A stretch of 64,000 nucleotides of DNA from Rikenellaceae bacterium (GTDB lineage: Bacteria; Bacteroidota; Bacteroidia; Bacteroidales; Rikenellaceae), in the NCBI GenBank assembly GCA_015060075.1, contig SUZE01000001.1:62001-126000 (forward strand). The letters are read 5' to 3'. The stretch's first letter is position 1. Every line of letters begins with the position of its first letter. Below are positions 5,827 to 59,866 of the stretch, piece after piece. Under the pieces are notes generated by a model. The model was not told where the DNA came from and did not search any database. It worked only from the letters and a program-made list of their open reading frames with translations. A program made the translations under genes and the position numbers.

Positions 5827-6579
5827 ATGTTTCTGAATCTATTGCAAGCCTCATACGAGGGACAGAGTCATATCCTCTCGAATCTTACAACAAGTGAGGC
5901 GTTTTTTATGGTTATTATTGTCGGTATTGCGGGCTTTATCGTGCAGGCTCGTTTGCGCTCTGTGGTATCGAAATATTCTCAGGTACCAATGCCTGCCGGA
6001 TTGACTGGTGCCGAGATAGCCGAGAAGATGTTGCGAGAGAATGGCGTGCATGGTGTTACCGTTACCCATACGGGCGGATACCTTACCGACCACTTCAATC
6101 CGCAGACAATGACGGTAAATCTCTCTGACGATGTCTACTATGGTCGCTCAATTACGGCTGCCGCTATTGCGTGTCATGAGTGCGGACATGCTGTGCAACA
6201 TGCGCAGGGATATGCTCCGTTGCAGATGCGTTCAGCACTAGTTCCTCTTGTGAACTTCTCATCGCAAGCGGCATCATGGCTGATTATTATCGGACTTATT
6301 ATGACCGCTTCATCGGGTAGTCAGCTGATGTGCTGGATAGGTGTGGGTTTGATGTGCGTGTCGGCACTATTTTCGATTATAACCCTTCCCGTGGAGTACA
6401 ATGCTTCGGATAGGGCGTTGGAGTGGTTGCAGTCGAGTAGGTTGCTTGTTGGTGAGGATTTGGAGGGAGCGAAAATATCGCTCCGCTGGGCTGCTCGTAC
6501 ATACCTTGTAGCAGCATTGTCGGCTATCGCTTCAATACTCTATTATGTGGCACTTATCAATGGCAGAAGAAGAGATTAA
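5827..6579 (+). CDS. YugP-type membrane zinc metallopeptidase
   Basis: The 250-residue protein has the zinc protease motif HECGH (HExxH) near residue 118, preceded by AIACHECGHAVQHAQGY, which is the signature of the YugP/COG2738 family. Membrane segments are seen near residues 27-45, 155-195 and 220-245, so the active site is membrane-associated. Substrates of this family are unknown. The gene is monocistronic: its own promoter lies 41 nt upstream, and the palindrome LPR1 begins on the second base of its TAA stop. Confidence 0.85.
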   Translation: MFLNLLQASYEGQSHILSNLTTSEAFFMVIIVGIAGFIVQARLRSVVSKYSQVPMPAGLTGAEIAEKMLRENGVHGVTVTHTGGYLTDHFNPQTMTVNLSDDVYYGRSITAAAIACHECGHAVQHAQGYAPLQMRSALVPLVNFSSQAASWLIIIGLIMTASSGSQLMCWIGVGLMCVSALFSIITLPVEYNASDRALEWLQSSRLLVGEDLEGAKISLRWAARTYLVAALSAIASILYYVALINGRRRD

Positions 6580-6702
6580 AAATCGTTCTGATGAGTTCTT
6601 TTGCACGAGCGCGTCAGACGCTGAAATGCTCACATAGGTTTGCTATGCTCCGCTTTCATCGCCTAGCGCCACACAAAAATAATCTCATCATTGACGATTT
6701 TT
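6578..6702 (+). repeat. long palindromic repeat LPR1
   Basis: This 125-bp imperfect palindrome starts with AAAAATCG on the stop codon of the zinc protease gene and ends CGATTTTT. Outer arms pair over ATCGT..TGATGAG / CTCATCA..ACGAT, inner arms over GCTGAAA-like / TTTCATCGC-like stretches. The apex is CATAG-gtttg-CTATG. On RNA it would be a very long hairpin ending in a U-run. Confidence 0.8.
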
Positions 6703-6739: not shown

Positions 6740-8185
6740 ATGAAGAGACAAACAAAATTGATTATTGGCCTTGCGCTTTCGATTATATCGTTGTGTTTTA
6801 GCATATTGCTGATAACCGATGCAATCCCTACATCGCCAAAGAAACCGAAGTATGTATTCTACTTTATCGGTGACGGAATGAGCTTCAATCATATCCTCGG
6901 TACAGAATTGTACAATACTGAAATGGCAGGAGCAAGCGAAACCTTGCGATTGAACTTTACGCAGTTCGATACTCGAAACTTTGTTACGAACTATTCAACT
7001 TCGAATCTCGTAACCGATTCGGCTGCGGCAGGTACGGCACTTGCTTCGGGAGTAAAGACCGCAAATGCCCATATTGGTGTTGATGTTGATGGCAATGAGT
7101 TGCGTACCATTGCCGATGTTGCTTCGGAATTGGGCTACAAGGTCGGTTTGGTTACCAATGTCGGTATCAACCACGCAACACCAAGTTGCTTCTATGGTCA
7201 CACCGCCGACCGTTTCGGTTTTCCAAGCCTTGTTGATGACTATATCGCCAGCGATGTGGCATTTATTGCCGGCTCTACGATTATGGATATGAAGAGTGGT
7301 CCACTCGACCCTAAATATGAGCGCACTACCACAGCGCAGTTGGCGGAGCGTATTCGCAATGCAGGTATAGAGTTGTGCCTTGATGTTGAGAAGGCTGCAA
7401 AGATTAGCGGCAGACGTGTCGCTCTGGTTGCGCACGACAAGGAGAATAAGCATGTGCCTTATGTTATAGACCGTGGCGAGAACGAGGAACATACCCTCGT
7501 AAATCACGCCAAAGCGGCGATTGAGTACCTCTCACACGAAGCAGAAGATGGCTTCTTTCTGATGGTGGAAGAGGGTAAACTTGACTACTCTGCGCACGAA
7601 CAAGACGCCGTGACTACTTTCCACGAGGTTAATGAGTTGGCGGCTACGGTGGAACTTGCGTTGGAGTTTGCCAAGCATCACCCTGACGAAACACTTATTG
7701 TAGTAACCTCAGACCACGAAACGGGTGGTATGTCGCTTGGTTGGGACCACTACGAAATTCGCATGAACGTTCTTGCTGCGCAAAAGACCTCTGCTTTGCA
7801 GGTAACCAAGACATTCCAACGTATGCGTGACGAAGGTGTTCGTGATTGGAATGCCTACAAGAGGGTGTTGAGCGATAATCTTGGTTTGTGGAGTGTTGTT
7901 CCTGTAACCAAAGAGGAGGAGAAGTTGCTCCTTCACGACTTCTACGACATATTCTTGAAGTATGGACCTATGGTTGATGGACTCTACAACAAAAACGAGT
8001 TTGTCACCTACCATGCACTGCGCATTTTGAATAAGCACGCATCGCTCGATTGGACAAGCCTTTACCATACAGGTATGTACACCCCGTTGTTTGTGAAGGG
8101 TGTCGGCGAGAAGGCATTTTTGGAGTGTCGTGACCAGACCGAGATTCCGAAGACTATTGCCTCTTTGATGGGCGGACAACTGTAA
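6740..8185 (+). CDS. alkaline phosphatase (PhoA superfamily)
   Basis: The 481-residue protein hydrolyses phosphomonoesters outside the cytoplasm. It has a signal-anchor-like N terminus (residues 7-26). The metal and catalytic motifs are in the expected order: FIGDGMS (metal Asp45), VTDSAAAGTA with nucleophile Ser94, YSAHEQD, and VTSDHETGG with metal ligands near residue 325. Length matches the family. Phosphate regulation cannot be judged because no Pho box consensus is known for this group. It follows LPR1 and precedes a PAP2-type phosphatase, giving two phosphatases in a row, but a nonamer array and a heptad array separate them. Confidence 0.9.
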   Translation: MKRQTKLIIGLALSIISLCFSILLITDAIPTSPKKPKYVFYFIGDGMSFNHILGTELYNTEMAGASETLRLNFTQFDTRNFVTNYSTSNLVTDSAAAGTALASGVKTANAHIGVDVDGNELRTIADVASELGYKVGLVTNVGINHATPSCFYGHTADRFGFPSLVDDYIASDVAFIAGSTIMDMKSGPLDPKYERTTTAQLAERIRNAGIELCLDVEKAAKISGRRVALVAHDKENKHVPYVIDRGENEEHTLVNHAKAAIEYLSHEAEDGFFLMVEEGKLDYSAHEQDAVTTFHEVNELAATVELALEFAKHHPDETLIVVTSDHETGGMSLGWDHYEIRMNVLAAQKTSALQVTKTFQRMRDEGVRDWNAYKRVLSDNLGLWSVVPVTKEEEKLLLHDFYDIFLKYGPMVDGLYNKNEFVTYHALRILNKHASLDWTSLYHTGMYTPLFVKGVGEKAFLECRDQTEIPKTIASLMGGQL

Positions 8186-8968: not shown

Positions 8969-9091
8969 AAAATCGTTCTGATGAGTTCTTTTTGCACGAA
9001 TCAGCGGACGCTGAAATGCTCACATACGCCAAGTATGCTGCGCTTTCATCGCCTTGCTTCGCACAAAAATAATCTCATCACCTCCGATTTT
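8969..9091 (+). repeat. long palindromic repeat LPR2
   Basis: This close relative of LPR1 starts AAAATCG and ends CGATTTT, with inner ACGCTGAAATG / CTTTCATCG arms and apex CATAC-gccaa-GTATG. It is the only full copy that does not sit on a stop codon. It lies between the lysS -7 element and the lysS start. Confidence 0.8.
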
Positions 9092-9136: not shown

Positions 9137-10864
9137 ATGGAACATTTAAGTGAACAAGAACAGTTGCGCCGCAATTCACTACAAGCGTTGCGCGACCTCG
9201 GTATCAACCCCTATCCGGCAGAGCGTTTCGATGTGTCGGCTACCGCTGCGCAGATAGCGGCCGAGTTCGATGCCGAGCCTGCAAAGTTCGAGTCGGTAAC
9301 CATCGCAGGTCGTATTATGAGCCGCCGTATTATGGGTAGTGCTTCGTTCTTCGAGTTGCAGGACCACACAGGTCGTATTCAGGTATATATCCGTCGTGAC
9401 GACATTTGTCCGGAGGGCGACCCAACACTCTATAACACCGTATTTAAGAAGTTGCTCGATATTGGCGACTTCGTAGGCATTGAGGGTTTTGCATTCCGCA
9501 CCAACACAGGCGAGTTGTCGGTACACTGCCGCAAGTTCACCGTTTTGTCGAAGTCTATCCGCCCACTTCCAATCGTGAAGGAGAAGGACGGACAGCAGTT
9601 CGATGCTTTGACAGACCCAGAGGTGCGCTATCGCCAGCGTTATGTCGATTTGGTGGTTAATCCGAAGGTGCGTGATGTTTTTGCAAAGCGTGCGAAGATT
9701 ATCGCTACCATGCGTGAGTACTTCAACGAGCACGGCTGCTTGGAGGTTGAAACTCCGATTTTGCAGCCAATTCCGGGAGGTGCTTCGGCTCGTCCGTTTA
9801 TCACTCACCACAACGCTCTCGATATCGACTTCTATATGCGAATAGCGACCGAGTTGTACTTGAAGCGTCTTATCGTGGGAGGTTTCGATGGTGTATACGA
9901 GTTTGGCAAGAATTTCAGAAATGAGGGTATGGATAGAACTCACAATCCGGAGTTTACATGTATGGAGATATATATCGCCTACAAGGACTACCGCTGGATG
10001 ATGGAGTTTACCGAGAATATGTTGGAGCGTATCGCTTTGGCTGTTAATGGCACTACCGAGGTGGAGATTGATGGCAAGCAGATTTCATTCAAGGCTCCAT
10101 TCCGCCGTTTGACTATGACCGATGCTATCCGCGAAAAGACGGGCTACGACATTACAGGTCAGAGCGAGGCTGAGTTGCGTGAGGCTTGCAAGCGTTTGAA
10201 TGTCGAGATTGACGACACGATGGGTAAGGGCAAGTTGATTGACGCAATCTTCGGACAGTACTGCGAGGAGGATTTGGTGCAGCCAACCTTTATCTGCGAC
10301 TACCCAATCGAGATGTCGCCACTCTGCAAGCGTCACCGCGACAATCAGGACTTGACAGAGCGTTTCGAATTGTTCGTAGCGGGCAAGGAGTTGTGTAATG
10401 CCTACTCGGAGTTGAACGACCCAATCGACCAGTTGGAGCGTTTCCAGGAGCAGATGCGATTGTCGGAGCGTGGCGACGACGAGGCGATGTTTATCGATAT
10501 GGACTTTGTTCGTGCGTTGGAGTACGGTATGCCTAACTGCTCAGGTATGGGTATGGGTATCGACCGTTTGACAATGTTTATGACAGGTCAGACTTCGATT
10601 CAGGATGTGTTGTTCTTCCCAACAATGCGCCCAGAGAAGAAGGTCGTTGCCGATAGTGAGGAGGTCTATACCGAGGCGGGAGTTCCTGCCGAGTGGGTTG
10701 AGGCTATTCAGAAGATGGGTTACATCACCCTCGAAGCCTTCGCCAACACTGCAAAGAGTGGCGGTATGAAACTCTTTAACGACCTTTGCGGCTTCAACAA
10801 GAAGAACAAGTTGGGCTTGCCTACTGCCGAGATTAAGGCGTGGATTGAGTCGCAGAAGGAGTAG
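9137..10864 (+). CDS. lysS: lysyl-tRNA synthetase, class II
   Basis: LysS charges tRNA-Lys. The 575-residue protein has the N-terminal OB-fold anticodon domain (about residues 55-170) and the class II catalytic core with motif 2 [15 protein letters not shown] and motif 3 [11 protein letters not shown]. The C-terminal extension of about 65 residues after motif 3 is usual in Bacteroidetes LysS. A 9-bp hairpin follows the stop. The leader holds LPR2, which could affect expression. Confidence 0.97.
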
Positions 10865-11695: not shown

Positions 11696-11820
11696 AAAAA
11701 GCGTTTTGAGGGGCTTTTACTGCGTTACGCTTGATTTGTAGATACTCACATACGCCCAAGTATGCTCCGTTCTACAAATCTTCGCAAGCCTTGTAAAATC
11801 CAACTCAAAAGCACTTTTTT
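11696..11820 (+). repeat. long palindromic repeat LPR3 (B subtype)
   Basis: The palindrome starts AAAAAGCGTTTTGAG and ends CTCAAAAGCACTTTTTT. Inside, GATTTGTAGA / TCTACAAATC is a perfect 10-bp pair and the apex is CATAC-gcccaa-GTATG. It shares ACTGCGTTACGCTTG and GCAAGCCTTGTAAAA with LPR7. It begins 2 nt after the tpiA stop. Confidence 0.82.
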
Positions 11821-11943
11821 AAAATTGTTTCTAACGGTTTTTGCCGCCTTCCTCGTAACATTGGAGTCGGTCACATACGCCAAAGTATGCTCCCTCCTTC
11901 TCTGCTACGAGAGCGTTGCAAAACCTCGTTATAAAGCAATTTC
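11821..11943 (+). repeat. long palindromic repeat LPR4
   Basis: This second palindrome lies directly head-to-tail with LPR3. Outer arms are AAATTGTTT.TAACG..GTTTTTGC and GCAAAAC..CGTTATAAAGCAATTT; CTCGTA / TACGAG pair inside and the apex is CATAC-gccaaa-GTATG. With LPR3, a terminator and a heptad array it accounts for the whole 344-bp tpiA-queA gap. Confidence 0.75.
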
Positions 11944-11963
11944 GGGAAACCAATGAAAAGTTT

Positions 11964-28615: not shown

Positions 28616-30286
28616 ATGAAATCAGACATTGAAATTGCACGCTCGGTAAAATTGAAGAATATCCGCGAGATTGCTGCTCAGGTGGGATTCCCGGAGGATG
28701 AAGTCTTTAACTATGGTAAATACATAGCAAAAATTCCGTATAAACTCATTGATAGTAAGAAGGTTAAAAAGAGCCATCTTATTCTTGTAACAGCAATTAC
28801 TGCGACCAAAGCGGGTGTAGGAAAGACTACTGTAAGTATTGGTCTGGGTATGGGACTTAATCACATTGGCAAGCGTGCTGTTATTGCACTGCGTGAGCCT
28901 TCGTTAGGTCCGTGCTTCGGTATGAAGGGAGGCGCAACCGGTGGTGGTTATACTCAGGTGCTGCCTTCGGAGGATATAAATCTTCACTTTACGGGCGATT
29001 TTCACGCAGTAACTTCGGCAAACAACCTTATTGCTGCTCTGCTCGACAACTATCTCTACCACAATCGCTCAAAGCAGGTTGGTTTGAAGAAGGTTATGTG
29101 GCGACGAGTTCTCGATATGAATGACCGTTCCTTGCGCCATATCGTTTCGGGACTTGGAGGCTCGACAAACGGAATACCAACCGAAACGGGATTCGATATC
29201 ACCCCGGCATCGGAGATTATGGCCATCTTGTGCTTGGCTCGCAATATTGACGACTTGTACGCACGCATTGGTCGTATAGTACTCGGTGTACGCTACGATG
29301 ATACCCCATTTACGGTGGAGGATTTGGGCGTTACGGGTGCGGTTGTGGCTCTGTTGAAAGATGCCATAAATCCAAATCTCGTGCAGACAACCGAGCATCA
29401 CCCCGTAATTGTTCACGGAGGACCTTTTGCGAATATTGCTCATGGTTGCAACTCGGTTATTGCAACCCGTATGGCAATGTCGTGGTCGGATTATACCGTT
29501 ACGGAGGCGGGCTTCGGTGCCGACCTTGGTGCAGAGAAGTTTTTTGATATAAAGTGCCGTCAAGCGGGGTTGAAGCCTGACCTAACGGTTTTAGTTGCTT
29601 CGACTTTGGCGTTGAAGATGCACGGTGGAGTGCCTGAAACGGAGATTAAACTGCCAAATGCCGAGGGCTTGAAGCGCGGTTTTGCAAACCTCGACCGCCA
29701 TATCGCCAACTTGCAGAAGTTTGGTCAGACCGTATTGGTGTGCTTCAATCGCTTCGCCAGTGATACAGACGAGGAGATTGCAATGGTTATGGAGCATTGT
29801 GCCGAGCAGGGTGTTCGTTGTGTAATCAACAACGCCTATATGGAGGGTAGCGCAGGTGCTGCCGAGTTGGCAACAGCAGCAGTCGAACTTATCGAAAACC
29901 AGCCATCTGCACCTCTCAATTATGCATACGACCTCGAAGATAGCATTATGACAAAGATTGAGAAGGTTGCCAAGAATATATATGGTGCCGGCTCGGTAGA
30001 GTTTAGTTTGAAAGCGCAGAAGGAAATTGCTCTAATTGAGAAGTGGGGTATGGGTAAGTTGCCTATCTGTATTGCAAAGACGCAGTATTCGTTTAGCGGT
30101 GATGCCAAGCAGTATGGTAGCGCTGAGGGCTTTACCCTTAAAATCAAGGACATAGAACTCAATGCCGGTAGTGGTTTTGTGGTGGTTTTGGCTGGCGATA
30201 TTATGCGTATGCCGGGATTGAGCAAGACGCCACAAGCGGTAAATATCCGCCTTGCCGAGGACGGAAATGTTGAGGGCCTAGTCTAA
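28616..30286 (+). CDS. fhs: formate-tetrahydrofolate ligase
   Basis: Fhs joins formate to tetrahydrofolate with ATP, feeding one-carbon metabolism and purine synthesis. The 556-residue protein has the ATP loop [19 protein letters not shown], the conserved [21 protein letters not shown] and the C-terminal PGLSKTPQA region. Length is as expected. LPR5 begins on the second base of its stop codon. Confidence 0.97.
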
Positions 30287-30408
30287 AATCGTTCTGATTG
30301 GTAAATTTTGCACGAGTGCGTCGGACTCCAAATTCCTCACATAGGCTTACTATGCTGCGGATTTGTCGCCTTGCATCGCACAAAATTTCCTCAATCATTG
30401 ACGATTTT
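30285..30408 (+). repeat. long palindromic repeat LPR5
   Basis: The palindrome starts AAAATCG inside the fhs TAA and ends CGATTTT. TTTTGCACGAGTGCG pairs with CGCACAAAA-type sequence, TCCAAATTC pairs with GGATTTG, and the apex is CATAG-gctta-CTATG. The apex pair is changed on both sides relative to CATAC/GTATG. Confidence 0.82.
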
Positions 30409-30426
30409 GTAATGGTGGGAGAAAAC

Positions 30427-31349: not shown

Positions 31350-32723
31350 ATGGAACTTCCTTTTGCAGAATCTTGGCGAATCAAGATGGTTGAGCCAATT
31401 AAAAAGAGCACTCGCGAGGAGCGCGAGAAGTGGATGAAAGAGGCGGACTACAACCTCTTCCAACTCCGTTCGGAGCAGGTTTACATCGACTGTTTGACCG
31501 ACTCGGGAACGGGTGCAATGAGCGACCGTCAGTGGGCAGCTGTTATGATGGGCGATGAGAGCTATGCAGGCTCATCTTCATTCTTCCACCTCAAAGAGAC
31601 TATCAACAAAATCACAGGTTTTGAGTATGTTATCCCTACACACCAGGGTCGTGCTGCCGAGAATGTATTGTTCTCGCACCTTGTAAAGGCCGGCTCGGTT
31701 GTTCCGGGTAACTCGCATTTCGATACAACCAAGGGACATATCGAGAGCCGTAAGGCGACCGCCCTTGACTGCACTATTGATGAGGCGAAAGATACTCAAC
31801 TCGAAATCCCATTCAAGGGAAATGTAGACCCTAAGAAGTTGGAGAAGGCGTTGGCAGAGCACCACGAGAATGTGCCGTTCATTATCGTTACCATCACCAA
31901 CAACACTGCGGGTGGTCAGCCTGTTTCGATGCAGAACTTGCGCGAGGTGCGTGCTATTGCCGACAAGTATGGCAAGCGCGTAGTTCTCGACTCGGCTCGT
32001 TTTGCCGAAAATGCATACTTTATCAAAACCCGCGAGGAGGGCTATGCCGACAAGACAATCAAGGAGATTGCACTCGAAATGTTCTCGTTGGCTGACGGTA
32101 TGACAATGTCGGCAAAGAAAGACGGTATCGTAAATATGGGAGGCTTTATCGCTACTCGCCACGAAGATTGGTACGAGGGTGCAAAGCGTTTCTGTATTCC
32201 ATTCGAGGGCTATCTCACATACGGTGGTATGAATGGTCGCGATATGGAGGCGTTGGCGGTAGGTCTTGACGAGAATACCGAGTTCGACAACCTCGAAACC
32301 CGTATCCATCAGGTTGAGTTCCTTGCAGGTTTGCTCGATGAGTACGGAATCCCTTATCAGCGCCCTGTGGGTGGTCACGCAATCTTCGTAGATGCCGACA
32401 AGGTGCTTACCAAAGTTCCAAAGGAGGAGTTTCCTGCACAGACTCTCGCTATCGAGTTGTATTTAGAGGCAGGTGTGCGTGGTTGCGAGATTGGCTATAT
32501 CCTTGCCGACCGTGACCCTGTAACCCGTGAAAATCGTTTTGGTGGGCTCGATTTGCTTCGTCTTTGCGTTGCTCGCCGTGTCTATACCGACAATCACATG
32601 CGAGTTATCGCTGCTGCATTGAAGAATGTGTTTGACCGCCGCAACGAGATTACTCGTGGTGTGGAGATTGTTTGGGAGGCGGAGCTTATGCGCCACTTCA
32701 CCGTAAAACTGCGTAAATTGTAA
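31350..32723 (+). CDS. tnaA: tryptophanase
   Basis: TnaA is a PLP enzyme cleaving tryptophan to indole, pyruvate and ammonia. The 457-residue protein has the Schiff-base Lys in TMSAKKDGIVNMGG and the PLP/substrate site DSARFAENAYF. Two positions separate tryptophanase from the related tyrosine phenol-lyase: HFDTTKGH has Asp where the lyase has Thr, and MRHFTVKL has His where the lyase has Phe. Both favour tryptophan. No tnaC leader peptide or TnaB permease is adjacent. LPR6 begins on its stop codon. Confidence 0.93.
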   Translation: MELPFAESWRIKMVEPIKKSTREEREKWMKEADYNLFQLRSEQVYIDCLTDSGTGAMSDRQWAAVMMGDESYAGSSSFFHLKETINKITGFEYVIPTHQGRAAENVLFSHLVKAGSVVPGNSHFDTTKGHIESRKATALDCTIDEAKDTQLEIPFKGNVDPKKLEKALAEHHENVPFIIVTITNNTAGGQPVSMQNLREVRAIADKYGKRVVLDSARFAENAYFIKTREEGYADKTIKEIALEMFSLADGMTMSAKKDGIVNMGGFIATRHEDWYEGAKRFCIPFEGYLTYGGMNGRDMEALAVGLDENTEFDNLETRIHQVEFLAGLLDEYGIPYQRPVGGHAIFVDADKVLTKVPKEEFPAQTLAIELYLEAGVRGCEIGYILADRDPVTRENRFGGLDLLRLCVARRVYTDNHMRVIAAALKNVFDRRNEITRGVEIVWEAELMRHFTVKLRKL

Positions 32724-32846
32724 AAATCATTCTGAGCGGTGAATTTTGCACTGCTCTTTGGTAAGCGAGTTCCTCACATACGTACAAGTATGCTGCGGAC
32801 TCGCTTCCTTGTTTAGCACAAAATTCCCTCGCTCACCTCTGATTTT
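32722..32846 (+). repeat. long palindromic repeat LPR6
   Basis: It starts AAAAATCA in the tnaA TAA and ends TGATTTT. GTGAATTTTGC pairs with AGCACAAAATTC, GCGAGT with ACTCGC, and the apex is CATAC-gtacaa-GTATG. The outer ATCA/TGAT pair replaces ATCG/CGAT, another compensated change. Confidence 0.82.
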
Positions 32847-32998: not shown

Positions 32999-33003
32999 TC
33001 TTT

Positions 33004-33036
33004 GCTCACATACGATTTAGTATGCTGCGCACTCGG
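33004..33036 (+). repeat. partial long palindromic repeat LPR9 (apex only)
   Basis: GCTCACATACGATTTAGTATGCTGCG carries the apex CATAC-gattta-GTATG without the outer arms. It lies just beyond the rlmN stop but keeps the same plus-strand orientation as the other copies. Confidence 0.65.
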
Positions 33037-34139: not shown

Positions 34140-34147
34140 TATATTTG
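34140..34147 (+). promoter_or_regulatory. -7 element for tonB
   Basis: TATATTTG fits TAnnTTTG, 72 nt before the chosen ATG. No TTTG at exactly 20 bp was seen. Confidence 0.5.
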
Positions 34148-34219
34148 TGGTTGATTAGGTGGCAAGTGAGATTTTGCCATAGTCAAAGAGTGAACGATAA
34201 ATTAAAAAACACACAATAT

Positions 34220-34903
34220 ATGGAGATTAAAAAGAACCCCAAAGTAGATGTTCAGAACAAGCGTGTCTTGTTGCTTGAAATTGGTTTGGCAGTATCGTTG
34301 CTGATTGTTATTGCAGCATTCCTCTACACCCCTCGTGAGTACAAGATTGAGCAGGTGGAGATGGTTGCCGCAGTTGTTGAGGAGGAGATTACCGAGATTA
34401 CTCGTCAGGACCAAAAACCACCGGAGCCTCCAAAGCGTACAGAGATTACCGTTATCACCGATATCCTCAATATCGTAACCAACGATGAGAAAATCGAGAC
34501 AAGTGTCGATTTCGCAGAGTTTGCCGAGGATGTTGAGATTATCCAGCAGGTGGCTGTTGAGGAGGAGAATATCGAGGACGACCAGCCATTCGTAAAGGTA
34601 GAGCAGATGCCTTCGTTTATGGGTGGTGACCTTATGACCTTCCGTAACTGGGTGCAGAGCAAGGTGCGTTTCCCTCAGATTGCACAGGAGAACAATATCT
34701 CGGGTCGTGTGCTTTTGATGTTTGTCATCGAGCGTGATGGTTCGCTTACCAATATTCAGGTTTTGCAGACACCTGATAGCTCACTTTCTGACGAGGCTAT
34801 CCGAGTTCTTAAAACCTCTCCAAAGTGGACTCCTGGTAAGCAGCGTAACCAGTCGGTGCGTGTGAAGTATACTTTGCCAATCGATTTCCGTATCCAGAAC
34901 TAA
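34220..34903 (+). CDS. tonB: TonB family energy transducer
   Basis: TonB links inner-membrane energy to outer-membrane receptors. The 227-residue protein has one N-terminal membrane anchor (VLLLEIGLAVSLLIVIAAFLY), a periplasmic spacer rich in Glu/Val with PPEPPKR, and a C-terminal TonB domain (about residues 135-227: FRNWVQSKVRFPQIAQENNISGRVLLMFVIERDGS to the end). MEIKKNPKVDV is chosen because the track extension overlaps the promoter. No exbB, exbD or receptor gene is adjacent. LPR7 begins on the stop codon. Confidence 0.9.
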   Translation: MEIKKNPKVDVQNKRVLLLEIGLAVSLLIVIAAFLYTPREYKIEQVEMVAAVVEEEITEITRQDQKPPEPPKRTEITVITDILNIVTNDEKIETSVDFAEFAEDVEIIQQVAVEEENIEDDQPFVKVEQMPSFMGGDLMTFRNWVQSKVRFPQIAQENNISGRVLLMFVIERDGSLTNIQVLQTPDSSLSDEAIRVLKTSPKWTPGKQRNQSVRVKYTLPIDFRIQN

Positions 34904-35023
34904 AAGCACATTCTAAATCGTTTTACTGCGTTACGCTTGTTCTCGAAATGCTCATTTACACCAAGTAAACTCCGCTTTCTCGAACTGCGCAAGCCTTGTA
35001 AAACAATTTATAATGCACTTTTT
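34902..35023 (+). repeat. long palindromic repeat LPR7 (B subtype)
   Basis: Arms AAAAGCACATTCTAAATCG and the matching ATTTATAATGCACTTTT pair almost fully, then GTTTTAC with GTAAAAC. The apex reads TTTAC-accaa-GTAAA instead of CATAC/GTATG, a double compensated change. It shares ACTGCGTTACGCTTG and GCAAGCCTTGTAAAA with LPR3. Confidence 0.85.
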
Positions 35024-35039
35024 GTAGTGCTAAAATTGT

Positions 35040-37168: not shown

Positions 37169-37717
37169 ATGGATATCTCAAATCTTCATACAGGTAGTTA
37201 TCGTACATTTTTGGCTTATAGGAAGGCTGAAATTATCTACGATATGACATACTATTTTTGCGAAAAATATCTTCGCAAAGGAGATAGAACTATCGACCAA
37301 ATGGTACAAGCGGCTCGCTCTGGTAAGCAGAATATCATCGAAGGCAAGGAGGCAGCAAGAACATCTTACGAAACTCTCCTCAAATTGATGAATGTTGCAC
37401 GAGCGAGTTTGCAGGAGTTGCTCGCTGATTATGAAGACTATTTGAGGACACGACATCTGCGACAATGGGCATTGAACTCTGTTGAAGTCAAAGCAATGCG
37501 CAAACTCGGTCGCGAGCGTAAAGATTCGGACTACTTTCTCTCTTTGGCGCAGACTCGTAGCGATGAGGTTATAGCAAATATGGTTATTGTGCTTATTTGC
37601 CAAGAGGATGTATTACTCGACCGATACACGAAAAAGCAAGAAGAGAAATTTGTAAAAGAGGGCGGTTTTCGCGAAAAACTCACACGGGAACGACTTGCCT
37701 ATCGCAAGAGTAGATGA
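37169..37717 (+). CDS. four-helix-bundle-suffix protein, copy 1
   Basis: The 182-residue protein is alpha-helical and belongs by pattern to the four helix bundle proteins (23S rRNA intervening-sequence type, related to the Avd accessory protein of diversity-generating retroelements) with the C-terminal suffix segment GGFREKLTRERLAYR. Core features are YRKAEIIYDMTYYFCEKY, ARSGKQNIIEG and LQELLADYEDYL. The start MDISNLHTG avoids an in-frame extension that reads through the hairpin array. It shares a long identical block with copy 2 at 40748. Its function is unknown; relatives bind nucleic acid or a reverse transcriptase, but no retroelement is visible here. Confidence 0.78.
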   Translation: MDISNLHTGSYRTFLAYRKAEIIYDMTYYFCEKYLRKGDRTIDQMVQAARSGKQNIIEGKEAARTSYETLLKLMNVARASLQELLADYEDYLRTRHLRQWALNSVEVKAMRKLGRERKDSDYFLSLAQTRSDEVIANMVIVLICQEDVLLDRYTKKQEEKFVKEGGFREKLTRERLAYRKSR

Positions 37718-38029: not shown

Positions 38030-40372
38030 ATGAAGAAGATTTTTACACTTATGCTGATGCTTGCGTTCGCATTGTTCGCAGGCGTGTCGTGTACAAACGA
38101 CCAGACTGGTGATGAGAAACCGGACCCAACTGCTCCGGTTGTAACCGTTACCGGTGTTCCTGAATTGAACTTGGCTCCTGAGGCTGGTTCGTTCACATTG
38201 AACTATGCTATCGAGAATGCAACTTTGACAGGCGTTCTCAACATCTCGACCGAGGCTGCTTGGTTGACAAAGGGTGAGGATACAGGTGCTGCTGTAACCT
38301 TCAACTATGCAGCTAACTCTGACGCTCCGGGCTCTGCTGCTCGTGAGGCTGTTATCGTATTTGCATACGAGGGTGCTGAGTCTGTATCTGTAACCGTTAA
38401 GCAGGATTCGCAGGCTCCTTCGTTCGAGATTGAGTGGGCAAATGTAACTTGTGGTTATGCACAGTACACTTGTACTCCTGCTGACGGCGAGATGCTCTAC
38501 CTCTTGGCAAGCACTCAGGAGTTGGGCCAGTTTGGTATTCAGGGAGAGACTCCACAGGAGTTGATGCAGAACTATGCACAGTTGTTGGCTTCTTATGGTA
38601 TGCTTACAGGTGAGGCTGATGGTTGGTATGTATTCAAGGGTGCTACGACCGAGATGCCAAAGGAAGCTTCTCGTTTCAGCGCAGAGGATACCGTTACTGT
38701 TTTCGCATTGGGTCTCTCTGTAACTGTTGGTGAGGTGGATCCAGAGACCGGTATGCCGGCTATCACTGTTAATCATCTCACTCCGGTACACGCTTGGGAT
38801 GTTCCATTCTTGCCTTACCCAACTCTTACCGTTCCTGAGGAGCAGTTGGTAAACAATGTTTCGGCTGCTGCTGGTGAGCTCGTTCTCGATTGCGTTTTGG
38901 AGAACGCTTTGAACGATGGTTCGGAGGTTACTCTCAATACTGAGGCTACTTGGGTTCACCCAACTTGGGCTGACAACAAGCTTACTATCGCTTACGATGC
39001 TAACGACATAGCTGTTGCTCGTCGTGCAAAGATTGCTGTTCAGTATGGTTGGTGGACTAACCCATTCGAGGTAACTGTTACGCAGGAGAAGAATGCTGAG
39101 GCTACCGCAATTACATTGAAACTCACTGTTAAGGGTACACAGTTTAATGGTATCTTGGTAGATGTTGAGCCATCTGACCCTGAGGTATACTACGCATTGA
39201 ACCACACTACTCCTGAGAAGGATTGGGAGACAGAGGCTGAGCTTCCAATCGATTGGATGCAAAAGGCAGAGGACCTCGTATCTTACACTGGCAATGCATC
39301 GTTCCACAAGGGCAATTTGACTGACTACCTGGTGAAGACCAATGTACAAAACTACGAGTATAATGGTTTGGAGTACTATGTATATGCAGTAGCAGTTGAT
39401 GCAACATCGGAGGAGAAGACTGACTACTTTGGTAAATTATATACAGAGTGGACAGTTAATAAGATTCTCAGTGAGGTGGTAGTTTCAGAGAAGACAACTG
39501 TAGATGTCAGCAAGATGCCTGCTGTAACTTGGGACCTTGAGAAGAGTGGTCTTGCTTTGAATTCGAAAAACTATTATGCTCGTGAAGTTGTAGAGGGCTC
39601 GACTGTGGTTCTTTACTTCAATGTTGAGAATCCTGTTGAGGGAGCATCGCTTAAGTTGAACGGTACTACTCTCATTGATAGCTACAATGTTGTTGATGGC
39701 GAGCCTGTGATTGACAATGTTGCTGGTACTATCACATTCAAGATTGACGCATTTGACCCAGCAAAGACATCTCACTATATCCGTCCAAACTTTAAGTATA
39801 CTAACGAGACTGACGATTTGTGGGGTATTATGACTCCAAGTTTGCAGTTGACACAAGTTGAAAACCCAGGTATGGCTCTTCCTTACCAGGAGTCGTTCGA
39901 GAATGGCATTGGTAACTTCACTATCAACGATGTTCTTCTCGGTGAAGGTTTGTCGTATGTTTGGAAGCACGAGAATGGTCAGTATGGCTACTATATGAAG
40001 GCTTCGGCTTTTGCAGGTAGCGCAAAGGAGAGTGAGAGTTGGTTGGTATCTCCAAAGATTGACCTCTCTGCTGCAACTATGCCGGGTCTTCAGTTCTCGC
40101 ACACTCACAAGTTCGCAGGTACTCCTGCTGAGGATCTCACTTTGTGGGTAAAGGAGTATGGTGCTGCTGAGTGGACACAGGTAACAATCCCTACTTACGG
40201 AACTGACTCAGATTACGACTTTGTTATTGCTGCTGTTGATTTGTCGGCTTGGGCAGGTAAGAAGGTTCAGATTGGTTTCAAGTACATTTCGTCGACTTCG
40301 GCTGCTGGTACTTGGGAAGTTAAGGATGTTGTAGTTTACGATGCTGGTGGTGCAGCTGCTCCGTTTATGTAA
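38030..40372 (+). CDS. BACON-domain lipoprotein with C-terminal choice-of-anchor-J-like domain
   Basis: The 780-residue protein has a lipoprotein signal (LFAGVSC, Cys21). Two BACON-type beta domains follow (about residues 45-125 and 270-355: LNISTEAAWLT..VTVKQDS and VTLNTEATWVHP..VTVTQEK, with the typical Trp), each followed by a unique domain. From about residue 640 a jelly-roll segment begins with LPYQESFENGIGNFTIND and ends WEVKDVVVYDAGG, like the choice-of-anchor J/cleaved-adhesin family. It is probably surface-exposed and binds carbohydrate or host glycoprotein; this is inference. It has its own promoter and terminator and lies between two paralogous four-helix-bundle genes. Confidence 0.82.
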   Translation: MKKIFTLMLMLAFALFAGVSCTNDQTGDEKPDPTAPVVTVTGVPELNLAPEAGSFTLNYAIENATLTGVLNISTEAAWLTKGEDTGAAVTFNYAANSDAPGSAAREAVIVFAYEGAESVSVTVKQDSQAPSFEIEWANVTCGYAQYTCTPADGEMLYLLASTQELGQFGIQGETPQELMQNYAQLLASYGMLTGEADGWYVFKGATTEMPKEASRFSAEDTVTVFALGLSVTVGEVDPETGMPAITVNHLTPVHAWDVPFLPYPTLTVPEEQLVNNVSAAAGELVLDCVLENALNDGSEVTLNTEATWVHPTWADNKLTIAYDANDIAVARRAKIAVQYGWWTNPFEVTVTQEKNAEATAITLKLTVKGTQFNGILVDVEPSDPEVYYALNHTTPEKDWETEAELPIDWMQKAEDLVSYTGNASFHKGNLTDYLVKTNVQNYEYNGLEYYVYAVAVDATSEEKTDYFGKLYTEWTVNKILSEVVVSEKTTVDVSKMPAVTWDLEKSGLALNSKNYYAREVVEGSTVVLYFNVENPVEGASLKLNGTTLIDSYNVVDGEPVIDNVAGTITFKIDAFDPAKTSHYIRPNFKYTNETDDLWGIMTPSLQLTQVENPGMALPYQESFENGIGNFTINDVLLGEGLSYVWKHENGQYGYYMKASAFAGSAKESESWLVSPKIDLSAATMPGLQFSHTHKFAGTPAEDLTLWVKEYGAAEWTQVTIPTYGTDSDYDFVIAAVDLSAWAGKKVQIGFKYISSTSAAGTWEVKDVVVYDAGGAAAPFM

Positions 40373-40436: not shown

Positions 40437-40559
40437 TGGGGGTAGGGGAGATAGGGTTGCTGGGGGTTGCTGGGGTTTACTGGGGGGTACTGAGGGTACT
40501 GGGGGTACTGGGGTTTACTGGGGGTACTAGGGGTACTAGGGGTACTAGGGGTACTAGGG
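40437..40559 (+). repeat. G-rich nonamer array (GGGGTACTA)
   Basis: About twelve G-runs of 3-6 G, mostly 9 bp apart, end with four near-perfect GGGGTACTA units. Earlier units vary (TTGCTGGGG, TTTACTGGGG). The plus strand could fold into G-quadruplexes. Confidence 0.85.
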
Positions 40560-40588
40560 AATAAATGCTATATACTATATCGTATGTA

Positions 40589-40674
40589 TAACCCTATAAC
40601 CCTCAGAATCCCCAGAATCCCCAGTTTCCCCAAAAAAACCATAACCCTCAGAGCCCTTAGTCCCCATAACCCCT
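40589..40674 (+). repeat. C-rich nonamer array (AGAATCCCC type)
   Basis: ACCCTATAACCCTCAGAATCC, AGAATCCCC, AGTTTCCCC and related units lie opposite in base composition to the G-rich array just upstream, so the two can partly pair. The word CCTCAGAATCCCCAGAA at 40601 recurs exactly at 41294. Confidence 0.78.
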
Positions 40675-40747: not shown

Positions 40748-41284
40748 ATGAATAATATTGGTCCACATAGCACGCTCAAGGGATATCGCAAGGCAGAGAT
40801 TATCTACGATATGACCTACTATTTTTGTGAAAAATATCTTCGCAAAGGTGACCGTACCATAGACCAAATGGTGCAAGCGGCTCGTTCGGGCAAGCAGAAT
40901 ATCATCGAGGGTATGGCGGTTGGTGAAACCTCGAAGGAGATGTTGTTGAAATTACTATATGTGGCGAAAGGCAGTTTGCAAGAGTTGCTTGCTGACTATC
41001 AAGACTATTTGCGTGTGCGAAATCTGCGACAGTGGGAGTCGAACTCGCTCGAAGTTGAGGCTATGCGTAGGTTGGGAAAAGAACACGATGATAGTGGCTA
41101 CTTTCTATCACTGGCGGAGAGCCGTAACGATGAGGTTATTGCTAATATGGTAATAGTGCTGATACACCAAGCAGATGTGCTGATTGAACGCTATTATAAT
41201 TGGCATTACAATAAATTTTTGGAGCAGGGCGGTTTTCGTGAAAAACTGACACGAGAGCGATTGGCTCATCGTCAAAACGAGTAA
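40748..41284 (+). CDS. four-helix-bundle-suffix protein, copy 2
   Basis: The 178-residue protein is a close paralogue of copy 1 (37169), with a shared identical block from YRKAEIIYDMTYYF through RSGKQNIIEG, the LQELLADY.DYLR core and the suffix GGFREKLTRERLAHR. Differences concentrate in the middle helix and the tail. The ORF track start 12 codons upstream includes the promoter; MNNIGPHS at 40748 is used. It is flanked by 17-bp direct repeats inside C-rich nonamer words, whereas copy 1 is flanked by hairpin arrays. Function is unknown. Confidence 0.78.
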   Translation: MNNIGPHSTLKGYRKAEIIYDMTYYFCEKYLRKGDRTIDQMVQAARSGKQNIIEGMAVGETSKEMLLKLLYVAKGSLQELLADYQDYLRVRNLRQWESNSLEVEAMRRLGKEHDDSGYFLSLAESRNDEVIANMVIVLIHQADVLIERYYNWHYNKFLEQGGFREKLTRERLAHRQNE

Positions 41285-41462: not shown

Positions 41463-43616
41463 ATGAAAAATTACTCACCAAAAGAGATTAAGAACATCGT
41501 TCTGATTGGTGCCCCTGGCTCGGGTAAAACTACCTTGGCAGAGGCTATGGCTTACGAAGGTAAGGTTATCGACCGCCGAGGTAGTATCGAAAATAACAAT
41601 ACTTTGTCGGACAACACCGACATCGAGCACGAATACAAACGCTCGATTTATGCGACCACTCTCTTCACAGAGTTTATGGGTCGCAAACTCAATATCATAG
41701 ACTGCCCGGGTTCGGACGACTTCTGCGGAAATCTCTTCTCGGCATTTAAGGTAGGTGACGTGGGCGTGATGCTCGTGAATGCGCAGACCGGCTGGGAGGT
41801 TGGTAACGTTATTCAGGGCCGTTATGCCCGTATCTTGAACAAGCCGCTTATCGCCGTAGTGAACCAACTCGATGCAGAGAAGGCTTCGTTTGAGAGCACA
41901 TTTGAGACTATCAAGGATAAGGCTTCGGTTAAGCCGGTTATCGTTCAGTATCCTGTAAATCAGGGTGTGGGCTTCGATTCGTTCATCGATGTTTTGATGA
42001 TGAAGATGTACCGCTTCACAGACGAGAACGGAACTCGTGAGGAGTTGGATATTCCGGAGAGCGAGATGGAGAAGGCAAAGGCGTTGAATCTCGAACTTAT
42101 CGAGACTGCTGCCGAGCACGATGATGCTTTGATGGAGTTGTACTTCGAGAAGGGTACTCTTACACAAGATGATATCCGTTCGGGTTTGAAGATTGGTGTT
42201 GCGAAACGTAAGGCTATGCCTGTATTCTGCGCAAGCGGTAAGAAAGATATCGGTACAAAGCGTTTGATGGAGTTCATTATCAATGTTGCACCTGGTCCAA
42301 CCGTAGCACCTGCATTCCCTGCAACTGACGGCTCGGAGGTTATGGCTGACGAGAACGCTCCTGTGGCATTGTTCGTATTCAAGTCGCAGATGGAGGGACA
42401 TATCGGCGAAATCAACTACTTCCGTGTAGTTCGTGGTAAACTCACTGAGGGTATGGAGTTGGTGAACTCGCGTACGGGCAATAAGGAGAAGTTGTCGCAA
42501 CTCTTCGCCGTAGCAGGTAAGAACCGTATCAAGGTTACCGAGTTGTCGGCAGGCGATATCGGTTGCACCGTGAAGTTGAAGGGTACTCGCACAAACGATA
42601 CTTTGTCGGCACCTTCTGCTCCTGTAACTTTGGAGCCTATCGTATTCCCTGAGCCACGCTACCGTGCAGCTGTTAAGGCGAAGGTACAGGGTGACGAGGA
42701 GAAACTCGGTAAGTTGTTGCTCGATGCACGCTTCGAGGACCCTACAATCCTCGTTGAGTACTCGAAGGAGTTGAAGCAGACCATTATTCAGGGACAGGGT
42801 GAACACCATCTCAATATCTTGCGTAACCGCATCTTGGCAGATAACAAGGTCGATATGGAGTTCTTCGCACCGAAAATCCCTTATCGTGAAACTATTACCA
42901 AGGTTGCTCAGGCAGACTACCGTCACAAGAAGCAGTCGGGTGGTGCAGGTCAGTTTGGCGAGGTACACATGGTTATCGAGCCATACTATGAGGGCATCGA
43001 AGAGCCTACAAAGTATAAGGTAAACGGCAAGGATATCACCGTAAATATCAAGGGCAAGGAGGAGTACGACCTTGAATGGGGCGGCAAACTCCAATATTAC
43101 AGCTCGATTGTAGGTGGTGCTATCGATGCACGCTTTATGCCTGCAATTTTGAAGGGTGTAATGGAGAAGATGGACGAGGGACCGCTCACAGGCTCGTATG
43201 CTCGTGACATTCGTGTAGTTATCTACGATGGTAAGATGCACCCGGTAGATTCGAACGAAATTTCGTTTAAGCTTGCTGCTCGTAATGCGTTTAAGGAGGC
43301 GTTCCGCAATGCAGGTCCGAAGATTATGGAGCCTATCTACAATGTTGAGGTTCTCACCCCAACTGATTATATGGGTTCCGTTATGAGCGACTTGCAGAAT
43401 CGCCGTGCGATGATTATGGGTATGGAGTCTGACAAGGGCTTCGATAAGCTCAACGCACGAGTACCTCTTGCAGAACTTTATCGTTACTCTACAACATTGT
43501 CATCTTTGACCTCCGGAGCAGCGACTTACACCATGAAGTTCGACTCATACGAGCAGGTGCCAAGTGATGTACAGGATAAGTTGTTGAAGGCATACACCGA
43601 CACTGACGAAGAGTAA
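41463..43616 (+). CDS. EF-G paralogue (EF-G2 type) with altered GTPase motifs
   Basis: The 717-residue protein has all EF-G domains but a divergent G domain. The P-loop reads GAPGSGKTTL rather than AHIDAGKTT. Switch II reads DCPGSDDF where canonical EF-G has DTPGHVDF, so the catalytic His is Ser. The base motif is NQLD instead of NKMD. Domain IV is intact (SGGAGQFGEVHMVIEP, SYARDIRVVIYDGKMHPVDS). A similar EF-G2 in Bacteroides thetaiotaomicron has been reported to translocate without GTP hydrolysis and to matter under nutrient limitation; applying that here is inference. The start MKNYSPKEIK is preferred to the upstream track Met. LPR8 begins on its stop codon. Confidence 0.88.
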   Translation: MKNYSPKEIKNIVLIGAPGSGKTTLAEAMAYEGKVIDRRGSIENNNTLSDNTDIEHEYKRSIYATTLFTEFMGRKLNIIDCPGSDDFCGNLFSAFKVGDVGVMLVNAQTGWEVGNVIQGRYARILNKPLIAVVNQLDAEKASFESTFETIKDKASVKPVIVQYPVNQGVGFDSFIDVLMMKMYRFTDENGTREELDIPESEMEKAKALNLELIETAAEHDDALMELYFEKGTLTQDDIRSGLKIGVAKRKAMPVFCASGKKDIGTKRLMEFIINVAPGPTVAPAFPATDGSEVMADENAPVALFVFKSQMEGHIGEINYFRVVRGKLTEGMELVNSRTGNKEKLSQLFAVAGKNRIKVTELSAGDIGCTVKLKGTRTNDTLSAPSAPVTLEPIVFPEPRYRAAVKAKVQGDEEKLGKLLLDARFEDPTILVEYSKELKQTIIQGQGEHHLNILRNRILADNKVDMEFFAPKIPYRETITKVAQADYRHKKQSGGAGQFGEVHMVIEPYYEGIEEPTKYKVNGKDITVNIKGKEEYDLEWGGKLQYYSSIVGGAIDARFMPAILKGVMEKMDEGPLTGSYARDIRVVIYDGKMHPVDSNEISFKLAARNAFKEAFRNAGPKIMEPIYNVEVLTPTDYMGSVMSDLQNRRAMIMGMESDKGFDKLNARVPLAELYRYSTTLSSLTSGAATYTMKFDSYEQVPSDVQDKLLKAYTDTDEE

Positions 43617-43742
43617 AAACACATTTTAAGGGGAAATTGCTTCCTTGTCTTCAAAAAATGAGATGGTTACATACGCCTTAGTATGCGCCCATCTCATTTT
43701 TCTTTGACGGCGTTGCACTTTCCTCCTTAAAATGAGTTTTTT
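43615..43742 (+). repeat. long palindromic repeat LPR8
   Basis: ACATTTTAAGGGGAAATTGC pairs with GCACTTTCCTCCTTAAAATG. AAAAATGAGATGG / CCATCTCATTTTT is a perfect 13-bp inner stem and the apex is CATAC-gcctta-GTATG. It starts on the second base of the EF-G2 TAA. Confidence 0.85.
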
Positions 43743-43963
43743 GGGGTAGTGGTATGCTACGGAACTCGCTTTCTTGTTTGGCACAAAATTTCCTCGCTCA
43801 TAAACGATTTTTTTGCTTTTGGGTTGCACTTTCCTCCTTAAAATGAGTTTTTTGGGGTAGTGGTATGCTACGGAACTCGCTTTCTTGTTTGGCACAAAAT
43901 TTCCTCGCTCATAAACGATTTTTTTGCTTTTGGGTTGCACTTTCCTCCTTAAAATGAGTTTTT
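43713..43963 (+). repeat. 111-bp tandem repeat (2.3 copies)
   Basis: The unit from TTGCACTTTCCTCC recurs at 43713, 43824 and 43935, exactly 111 bp apart, the third copy stopping after about 29 bp. Each unit joins an LPR8-type 3' arm to the 3' half of an LPR6-like palindrome (GGTATGCTACGG..GCACAAAATTTCCTCGCTC..CGATTTTTTT). Because 111 is divisible by 3, it creates a 37-residue repeat in a spurious minus-strand ORF. With LPR8 and the promoter repeat it accounts for the 477-bp gap before dprA. Confidence 0.9.
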
Positions 43964-51238: not shown

Positions 51239-53110
51239 ATGGCAAAATTTGAGTACAAATATCTCTATAATATAGACTCGCCTGCCGATTTGCGAAAGTT
51301 GTCGATAGACGAGTTGCCACGCTATTGCGAGGAGGTACGACAATATATTATCGAACAGTGTGCCGTAAATCCGGGACACCTTGCATCTTCGCTCGGTGCG
51401 GTTGAGATTGCCGTAGCGGTTCACTATGTCTACGACACTCCGAACGATAAACTCATCTGGGACGTTGGACATCAGGCGTATGCTCACAAGATAATTACAG
51501 GACGCCGTAATGCCTTCTCTACAAATCGCCGTTTGGGTGGTATAAGCGGTTTCCCTCGTATGGCAGAGAGCGAGTACGATGCTTTCGGAGCAGGACACTC
51601 CTCGGTGTCGGTATCGGCGGCACTCGGTATGGCGCAGGCGGCAAAACTTCAAGGTAAAGTGCAAAAGACGGTTGCTGTCATTGGCGATGGCTCAATTGCC
51701 GGAGGTTTGGCATTTGAGGGTTTGAACAATGCCGGCTCTGATAAGACAACAGATATCTTGGTTATCCTGAATGATAACAACATGTCTATTGATAAGTCGC
51801 AGGGTGCATTGAACCACTATCTGTTGCGTCTTTCGACCTCATCGAAGTATAATCGTTTCAAGCAGGGATTGTGGTCGTTGTTATCTTGTACGCCAAGTGT
51901 GCTCAATTTCTGCCGTAAGGTCGGTAATGCTTTGAAACATGGCTTGTTACAGAATAGTAATCTCTTTGAGAGTCTCGGCTTCCGTTACTTTGGTCGTGTA
52001 GATGGACACGATGTAAAGCGATTGGTGCGTACTTTGAGGGCTTTGAAGGGGATTTGTTCTCCGAAGTTATTGCATGTAATAACCGAAAAGGGGCATGGTT
52101 ATGCTCCGGCAAAGAGTAACTTGTCGGTTTGGCACGCCCCGGGTTGTTTTAATCCTGAAACGGGTGAGCGCATCAAGAAGGAGTCGAAAGCCTCTCGTAT
52201 GCAAGATGTCTTCGGATATACACTCCTTGACCTTGCACGAATGGATGAGCGTGTCGTTGGAATTACGCCGGCAATGCCTTCCGGTTGTTCTATGACAATC
52301 ATGATGGAAGCGATGCCGGAGCGTTGTTTTGATGTTGGAATTGCCGAAGGTCATGCCGTAACATTCTCGGCAGGACTTGCAGCGGTAGGCGCACGACCTT
52401 TCTGTAATATCTACTCGACATTTATGCAACGAGCATACGACAATATTATCCACGATGTTGCATTGCAGAGCCTGCCGGTTATCTTCTGCCTTGACCGAGG
52501 TGGACTTGTCGGTGAAGATGGAGCAACCCATCATGGAGCATTCGATATCGCATATCTTGGTTGCGTGCCAAATATGACTATCGCAACCCCATCAGACGAG
52601 TGGGAGTTACGAAATATGATGTTTACAGCGTTACAAAGTGATACTCCGTTTGCTATCCGCTATCCTCGTGGTACGGGTAGAGGTGTAGAGTGGCAAGGTA
52701 TGCCTTTCGAGTCTATCGAAGTGGGTAAAGCTCGTCAGGTGCGAGAGGGTAGCGATGTCGCTGTGTTTGCTTTCGGAACATTGTGTGCTGATGCCGAGCA
52801 GGCTGCCGAGCAGGCTGCGGTAATAGGTGTGAGTGCAGCGGTGTATGATATGCGCTTTGCAAAGCCGTTAGACGAATCTCTTATTTTGGAGGTTGCCCGT
52901 AAGTTTAAGCGTATCGTAACTGTCGAGGACGGAGTTATTCGAGGTGGCGCAGGTGAGGCTGTTGTTAAGTTACTTAATGACAACAACATCACAACCTCTG
53001 TTGTTACACTCGGTATTGACGATAAGTTTGTTGAGCATGGCACAGTGGCAGAGTTGCGACACATGTGCGGGTATGATGTAGAGGGAATACTTAATGCAAT
53101 TATAAAGTAA
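51239..53110 (+). CDS. dxs: 1-deoxy-D-xylulose-5-phosphate synthase
   Basis: Dxs makes the first intermediate of the MEP isoprenoid pathway from pyruvate and glyceraldehyde 3-phosphate. The 623-residue thiamine-diphosphate enzyme has HLASSLGAVE, DVGHQAYAHKI, the TPP motif GDGSIAGGLAFEGLNNAG, EGHAVTFSAGLA and DRGGLVGEDGATHHG. The third gene after dapF and tamL, it is convergent with the Bat locus. LPR10 begins on its stop. Confidence 0.97.
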   Translation: MAKFEYKYLYNIDSPADLRKLSIDELPRYCEEVRQYIIEQCAVNPGHLASSLGAVEIAVAVHYVYDTPNDKLIWDVGHQAYAHKIITGRRNAFSTNRRLGGISGFPRMAESEYDAFGAGHSSVSVSAALGMAQAAKLQGKVQKTVAVIGDGSIAGGLAFEGLNNAGSDKTTDILVILNDNNMSIDKSQGALNHYLLRLSTSSKYNRFKQGLWSLLSCTPSVLNFCRKVGNALKHGLLQNSNLFESLGFRYFGRVDGHDVKRLVRTLRALKGICSPKLLHVITEKGHGYAPAKSNLSVWHAPGCFNPETGERIKKESKASRMQDVFGYTLLDLARMDERVVGITPAMPSGCSMTIMMEAMPERCFDVGIAEGHAVTFSAGLAAVGARPFCNIYSTFMQRAYDNIIHDVALQSLPVIFCLDRGGLVGEDGATHHGAFDIAYLGCVPNMTIATPSDEWELRNMMFTALQSDTPFAIRYPRGTGRGVEWQGMPFESIEVGKARQVREGSDVAVFAFGTLCADAEQAAEQAAVIGVSAAVYDMRFAKPLDESLILEVARKFKRIVTVEDGVIRGGAGEAVVKLLNDNNITTSVVTLGIDDKFVEHGTVAELRHMCGYDVEGILNAIIK

Positions 53111-53164
53111 AAGTCGTTCTGGCGGGCTGTTTGACACTCTGCCTACGCCATTTCCGATACGACT
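53109..53164 (+). repeat. truncated long palindromic repeat LPR10
   Basis: AAAAGTCGTTCTGGCG starts on the second base of the dxs TAA like the A-type LPRs and ends CGATACGACT, so AGTCGT can pair with ACGACT. The centre is short and lacks the CATAC apex. It fills the dxs-batB convergent gap. Confidence 0.6.
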
Positions 53165-59596: not shown

Positions 59597-59718
59597 AAAC
59601 TTTCAGTTTAGTTGAACAAACAACCTATCTAACCGTTTCATTGTAAATTGGACTCGAACGGTCGCAGCAGTTGAGAGCAGACCGAAGAGATATGCGATAG
59701 GAGTTAAACTGAAAGTTT
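59597..59718. repeat. inverted repeat AAACTTTCAGTTTA
   Basis: AAACTTTCAGTTTA (59597-59610) and TAAACTGAAAGTTT (59705-59718) are perfect complements 94 bp apart. The enclosed sequence contains no ORF. They may be excisionase/integrase arm sites or a remnant of a small element. Confidence 0.6.
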
Positions 59719-59866
59719 CGAGAATAGATTGAAAAGCAGTAGTCAAATTTATTTGAACTATTGATTTTTAATCTGTTATCGTAGTTGCGTAGCAACAACT
59801 ACTATCGCACAACTCGCAGACAAGTTTGCCGAGACGCCCCCGACTGACCGAGCCTCCGAGCGCAAC

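Follow-up and report, generated by a model that had tools for sequence, protein, structure and literature searches.

What are the long palindromes that recur behind the genes of this locus, and how did they come to lie there? The window, that is, the whole stretch of 64,000 nucleotides that was analysed (G000:C5:62001-126000), belongs to a Rikenellaceae genome of 1.93 Mb in 43 contigs and holds eight full copies of an element termed LPR. In this host LPRs measure about 125 bases (120-130 bp), and all eight full copies form long hairpins when folded. They are a genuine structured repeat family, larger than first noted. What the analysis adds to the initial annotation is the start at stop codons, a uniform strand, sense orientation, mobility and a count of roughly 96 matches in the genome. 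According to our analysis, LPRs are probably a new Rikenellaceae branch of a superfamily of ERIC-like, non-autonomous mobile hairpins, and one that is becoming a 3'-UTR element.

Window copies and their folded structure

A scored palindrome scan of the window recovered all eight full copies with scores of 20.7-32.1, against a top score of 17.5 in 128 kb of locally shuffled sequence; it replaced an earlier RNA-fold scan with loose cut-offs, which had flagged hundreds of windows, many of them coding. A covariance model, R1, was built from the window palindromes and their relatives; it comprises 14 inner pairs, and ERIC sequence was not among its inputs. Searched with R1, the window yielded the same eight full copies (E-values of 1e-10 to 1e-22) and one apex fragment, and the eight palindromes first annotated are confirmed in both position and fold. 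The two partial copies proposed alongside them fared differently: the one at 33004 is this apex fragment, and the one at 53109 is a left-arm-like remnant. The features, all on the + strand, are as follows:

6578-6702, +, LPR1, full palindrome on the TAA stop of gene 5827-6579; apex CATAG/CTATG
8969-9091, +, LPR2, full palindrome, 16 nt past a TAG stop
11696-11819, +, LPR3, full palindrome, 2 nt past the triosephosphate isomerase stop codon (TAA)
11815-11949, +, LPR4, tandem second copy immediately behind LPR3
30282-30415, +, LPR5, full palindrome with apex CATAG/CTATG; begins on the formate-THF ligase stop codon (TAA)
32722-32846, +, LPR6, full palindrome; begins on the beta-eliminating lyase stop codon (TAA; gene 31350-32723)
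33002-33031, +, apex fragment, degraded copy (R1, 31.1 bits)
34901-35025, +, LPR7, on the TAA stop of TonB-domain gene 34145-34903; apex TTTAC/GTAAA
35040-35069, +, intrinsic-terminator-like hairpin and T-run downstream of LPR7, present in near strain G005 too
43615-43741, +, LPR8, full palindrome on the TAA stop of the elongation-factor-G-type gene
43712-43933, +, pair of exact 111-bp direct repeats that include the right halves of older LPRs; R1 matches weakly at 43808
53108-53140, +, remnant resembling a left arm, at the DXP synthase stop codon (TAA); incomplete and without R1 match

The window also contains repeats of other kinds. A long inverted repeat at 40445-40665, scoring up to 37.9 and with GGGGTACT-like units at its left, lies behind gene 38030-40372; a palindrome scoring 26.2 at 59687-59815 is without the LPR apex; and the segments 37217-37516 and 40784-41083 are direct copies of 300 nt with 74% identity.

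The LPR apex is asymmetric and almost invariant, with the motif TCA-CATAC-N5-GTATG-CTSCG. When 61 diverse copies, chosen in part for their paired arms, were aligned, RNAalifold paired 14 columns, 12 of which changed on both sides. Paired cells amounted to 91.3% (69.8% in shuffles), cells changed on both sides numbered 194 (65 in shuffles) and the covariation score was 0.516 (0.136 in controls), while structures slid along the alignment reached at most 45% pairing. Because this set had been pre-selected for paired arms, the host genome offers the cleaner test: among 92 model-found host copies, 55-nt arm complementarity was 17.5 ± 5.6 within elements versus 3.7 ± 3.5 between elements. The view that the copies form one family with a maintained fold is borne out by both comparisons. 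The apex itself had been described as covarying, which does not hold; its stem is identical in 59 of the 61 rows, so CATAG/CTATG and TTTAC/GTAAA are rare variants and the covariation is located mostly in the inner arm adjoining the apex.

Covariation alone falls short of proving an RNA function, because recombination can swap arm pairs together. LPR5 and its counterpart in G005 differ in the inner stem-loop as a unit and share the same outer arms. Such a block difference is what would be expected of neutral palindromes in which template switching or gene conversion preserves the match between the arms, with covariation devoid of functional meaning. We regard this explanation as improbable, since the asymmetric internal loop of the apex is conserved across phyla and palindrome correction would erase it. 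We instead posit a mobile hairpin whose arms vary yet stay self-complementary.

Position behind stop codons and strand uniformity

In the window, six of the eight copies follow a sense gene and begin no more than about nine bases from its stop codon, mostly on the TAA itself. The exceptions are LPR4, the tandem second copy, and LPR2; as the latter is downstream of a TATCTTTG promoter-like motif and ahead of a class II tRNA synthetase gene (9137-10864), it lies in the 5' leader of that gene. The same placement is found genome-wide in stretches covering 92 of the 96 R1 matches of the host, where a sense stop (of an ORF of at least 150 codons) precedes the apex by 30-79 nt in 58 of 92 copies. A second bump in the distances at 140-190 nt fits tandem second copies, and antisense stops are distributed flatly, without a peak. 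TAA accounts for 53 of 64 sense stops, followed by TAG (8) and TGA (3). Most orthologs of triosephosphate isomerase keep the same C-terminus whether the element is present or absent. We conclude from this that the elements adjoin existing stops and do not supply new ones; one G005 site does show a change in the final codons of its gene. Nor is LPR7 simply the terminator of its gene, because an ordinary terminator is retained downstream.

Another class of palindromes, with an apex like CTGTAC-N4-6-GTACTATCC, was seen in relatives directly behind the same stop codons, namely those of the triosephosphate isomerase gene (loci L130, L131, L132 and L133) and of the 31350-type gene (L158, L160 and L161). 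It is as if a second family fills the LPR niche.

A search of the host genome and its genus with the covariance model, as proposed in the initial annotation, returned 96 R1 matches in the host, corresponding to about 95 copies, and positive results in 23 of 31 genus genomes (0-96 copies each, with eight genomes lacking any). All 96 host matches agree in strand within their contig (27 contigs, 20 of them with more than one copy, zero exceptions). The chance of such agreement is about 1e-13 when tandems are merged and a gene-strand bias of 62% is allowed for, this being the share of genes on the LPR strand in the host stretches examined. The LPR strand is G-rich in 12 of the 13 contigs with at least three copies and near zero in the thirteenth, a GC skew that suggests leading-strand sense. 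Relatives in the genus show a similar strand tendency with exceptions (e.g., contigs C33 of G001 and C18 of G046), and in Proteobacteria the orientation of LPR-type elements is mixed.

The strand pattern may have arisen because the elements insert into one of the two strands relative to the replication fork, or because selection favours copies on it. Selection of orientation, rather than its setting by insertion, would also be involved if the core were a polar DNA signal along the replichore, comparable to KOPS or Chi. One strand per host contig, mostly the G-rich one, agrees with such a role, which is nevertheless very improbable given the range from 0 to 96 copies within one genus, a total of about 95 copies that is few for such a signal, and the mixed orientation in Proteobacteria. 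Whatever the mechanism, stop-codon placement and strand uniformity set concrete constraints on it.

As 3'-UTR elements, LPRs would become part of the mRNA as transcribed hairpins; with about 95 copies, many mRNA 3' ends of this small genome would carry a long hairpin. By analogy with ERIC in Yersinia, this hairpin may alter 3'-end processing or stability. In that genus, ERIC at the 3' ends of genes alters transcript levels via an RNase E site (PMC2229807, PMC10969869).

Mobility and candidate movers

LPR copies have spread recently and vary between near strains. None of the compared window sites is unchanged between the host (G000) and its near strains G005 and G005b. LPR1 and LPR2 are missing from the orthologous sites of G005, and LPR3/4 are represented there by outer-arm remnants only. 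The LPR5 site has the same outer arms with another inner stem-loop in G005 and no element in G005b, and the LPR6 site has a different element in G005 and none in G005b. In G005, the LPR6 and LPR7 sites both carry different elements followed by older right halves; a further copy, behind gene 6740-8185, is without counterpart in G000. Contamination of 5% is listed for G005, and its loci L148 and L149 are two versions of one region (98-99% at the protein level) with different LPR content; G005 is probably a strain mixture, and for these two reasons G005b may be a second strain.

Near-identical units are also found at unrelated loci. Those of G001 and G044, two members of the genus, consist of an LPR, a short hairpin and a T-rich stretch, and have sharp ends without evident duplication. 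In the gammaproteobacterial genome G622, 13 examined near-identical copies have sharp ends, with GAACCTGTTCA in common, and 11 of the 13 are flanked by identical triplets of the type TNA (TAA, TTA or TGA), the other two being without. Three copies in this genome (G622:C3:20103, C17:25751 and C39:15015) are of a version of about 166 bp with extra arm sequence (CACCCCTCAAGGGGGTAC), which occurs beside the 143-bp version. Many LPR termini read TA...TA and several do not; no clean empty site was found in the genus. More than one insertion mode is suggested by the combination of triplets in G622, a TA-like duplication at an E. coli ERIC site and no visible duplication around the G001/G044 units. 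Were TNA or TA the favoured target, the TAA stops would be easier to explain, and the preference for stops over other intergenic TAA would still be unaccounted for.

Many LPR copies of G001 lie at contig ends (L257-L259, L261-L263, L266, L268, L270 and L271). LPRs seem to break assemblies, which for this reason probably undercount them, and true copy numbers may be higher.

These observations bear on the possibility that LPRs are resident 3'-UTR elements, i.e., terminators or mRNA-stability hairpins under selection with little current mobility. The sense orientation and start at the stop codon, the A-run and T-run at the two ends and the carriage of LPR and terminator as a unit in some relatives would all suit residents. 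We consider this unlikely, because presence and absence differ between near strains, near-identical units occur at unrelated loci and an ordinary terminator was kept downstream of LPR7.

Mobile elements of this kind would be recognised by an enzyme acting in trans, and none was found by searches for Y1 transposases (PF01797), reverse transcriptases (PF00078) or insertion-sequence ends of the G622 type. PF01797 had no match in any of the 31 genus genomes, with a positive E. coli control, and PF00078 was absent from the three most copy-rich genomes (G000, G001 and G005). Judged by these Pfam models, both enzyme classes are unlikely movers, being absent where copies are most abundant. An exact-match scan for G622 end pairs at IS-like spacing gave no IS-sized pair, and of the single G622 ends examined, one belonged to another LPR copy and the rest had no second end within 1.7 kb. 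No phage with a Nitrosomonas-type copy was found, and among plasmids there was one weak record.

ERIC has been known since 1990-91, and to our knowledge no transposase has been assigned to it. We tentatively raise the possibility, doubtful as it is, that an enzyme moves the hairpins in single-stranded form, at the replication fork, into the stops of genes codirectional with the fork, and that the same enzyme class underlies ERIC. A mover of this type would explain both the strand uniformity and the missing transposase of ERIC.

Being palindromic, intergenic, close to stop codons and strand-biased, LPRs could be taken for REP or REPIN elements moved by a REP-associated Y1 transposase (RAYT). 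REPs too are intergenic palindromes, a fraction of them near stop codons (PMC12306157); in E. coli, those no more than 15 nt from the stop affect translation (PMC12306157). They are, however, 20-40 bp long with a GTAG or CGTC tag (PMC3733652), whereas LPRs measure 120-130 bp and the tag is not seen in our alignments. The Y1 transposase of the RAYT type is, moreover, missing from the LPR genus. Such an identity is largely refuted within the genus by the lack of PF01797 matches, the wrong length and the absent tag, and we hold it to be extremely improbable.

Distribution across phyla and comparison with known repeats

The LPR family is not confined to Bacteroidales. Among the matches listed for the exact apex pattern, most contigs belong to MAGs titled Alistipes or Rikenellaceae, assembled from ruminant or other gut material, and Proteobacteria, Desulfobacterota, Myxococcota and Clostridia contigs are also present; the matches that were folded are palindromes, some of them imperfect. 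Multicopy palindromes of 120-160 bp with the same core occur in Gammaproteobacteria, Nitrosomonas, Desulfobacterota and others, with up to 56 R1 matches per proteobacterial genome. R1 matches were found in 98 of 274 sampled genomes of the gammaproteobacterial class to which G053 (the genome of L040, titled Rudaea cellulosilytica) belongs. Among 393 Bacteroidota they were found in 43, most of these from two further families. The superfamily core may be described as an asymmetric apex hairpin, TCA-NNTAC-loop-GTANN-CTC, with the mid-arm motifs TGCGTT on the left and GCCTTGC on the right.

The initial annotation knew of no named family like this in Bacteroidales. In support of this, no Rfam family was matched by the elements at gathering thresholds, and none of the papers listed by a literature search with the apex sequence described a repeat family; what has to be qualified is that the family spans phyla and that its core resembles ERIC, a named enterobacterial MITE.

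Other small repeats are more distant. QMITE2 of Coxiella burnetii, compared by description only, resembles LPR in its length of 150-190 bp and its location mainly in 3' UTRs, a preference that is unexplained (PMC5896051), and differs by description in its variable direct repeats of 7-11 nt and an embedded GTAG REP (PMC5896051). Correia/NEMIS and RUP are, like LPR, small intergenic elements, with TA termini such as many LPR copies have and transcribed stem-loops such as LPRs would form (PMC2229807). They are listed by their terminal inverted repeats (PMC2229807), whereas in LPRs it is the apex that is conserved, and RUP has a link to an IS630 element.

ERIC (also IRU or RU-1; 127 bp, enterobacterial) agrees with LPR in length, imperfect palindromy, intergenic location and multicopy occurrence. 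The likeness extends to the 5-bp apex stem ending in TAC/GTA, the TCA and CTC flanks, a CTGCGT mid-arm motif and, in many LPR copies, the TA termini. On the LPR-sense strand ERIC reads CAG-TCA-CTTAC-TTAT-GTAAG-CTC-CTG, so that CTTAC/GTAAG stands against CATAC/GTATG in LPR, and the outer arms are entirely different by inspection. E. coli ERIC aligned with R1 over all 105 positions, a weak match of 21.1 bits in which the apex stem letters differ. It was the top R1 hit in 67 kb of MG1655 (runner-up, 10.7 bits), with E-values of 3.5e-3 there and 7e-4 over 13 kb that are rough because the calibration was short.

Placement is in part comparable. Within the handful of ERIC copies examined, four lie behind a sense stop with the apex 53-60 nt downstream (cusC, ybhI, ubiV and a Kosakonia transaminase), and the others are without this placement, the copy at alaS being antisense. 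The TA-like duplication mentioned above is at ubiV-yhbW, a site without ERIC in MG1655. Where it is occupied, the element follows the stop by 3 nt, with TA preceding it and CA following it. LPR strands are strictly uniform in their Bacteroidota host, whereas ERIC occurs antisense too, and its range was given in a 2024 review as Enterobacteriaceae and Vibrionaceae (PMC10969869). Because the match is weak, convergence of ERIC and LPR on a similar apex is possible; from the sequence likeness, common descent of the core appears likely. If the core is indeed common to several phyla, the origin, mover and function of ERIC would be open to comparative genomics.
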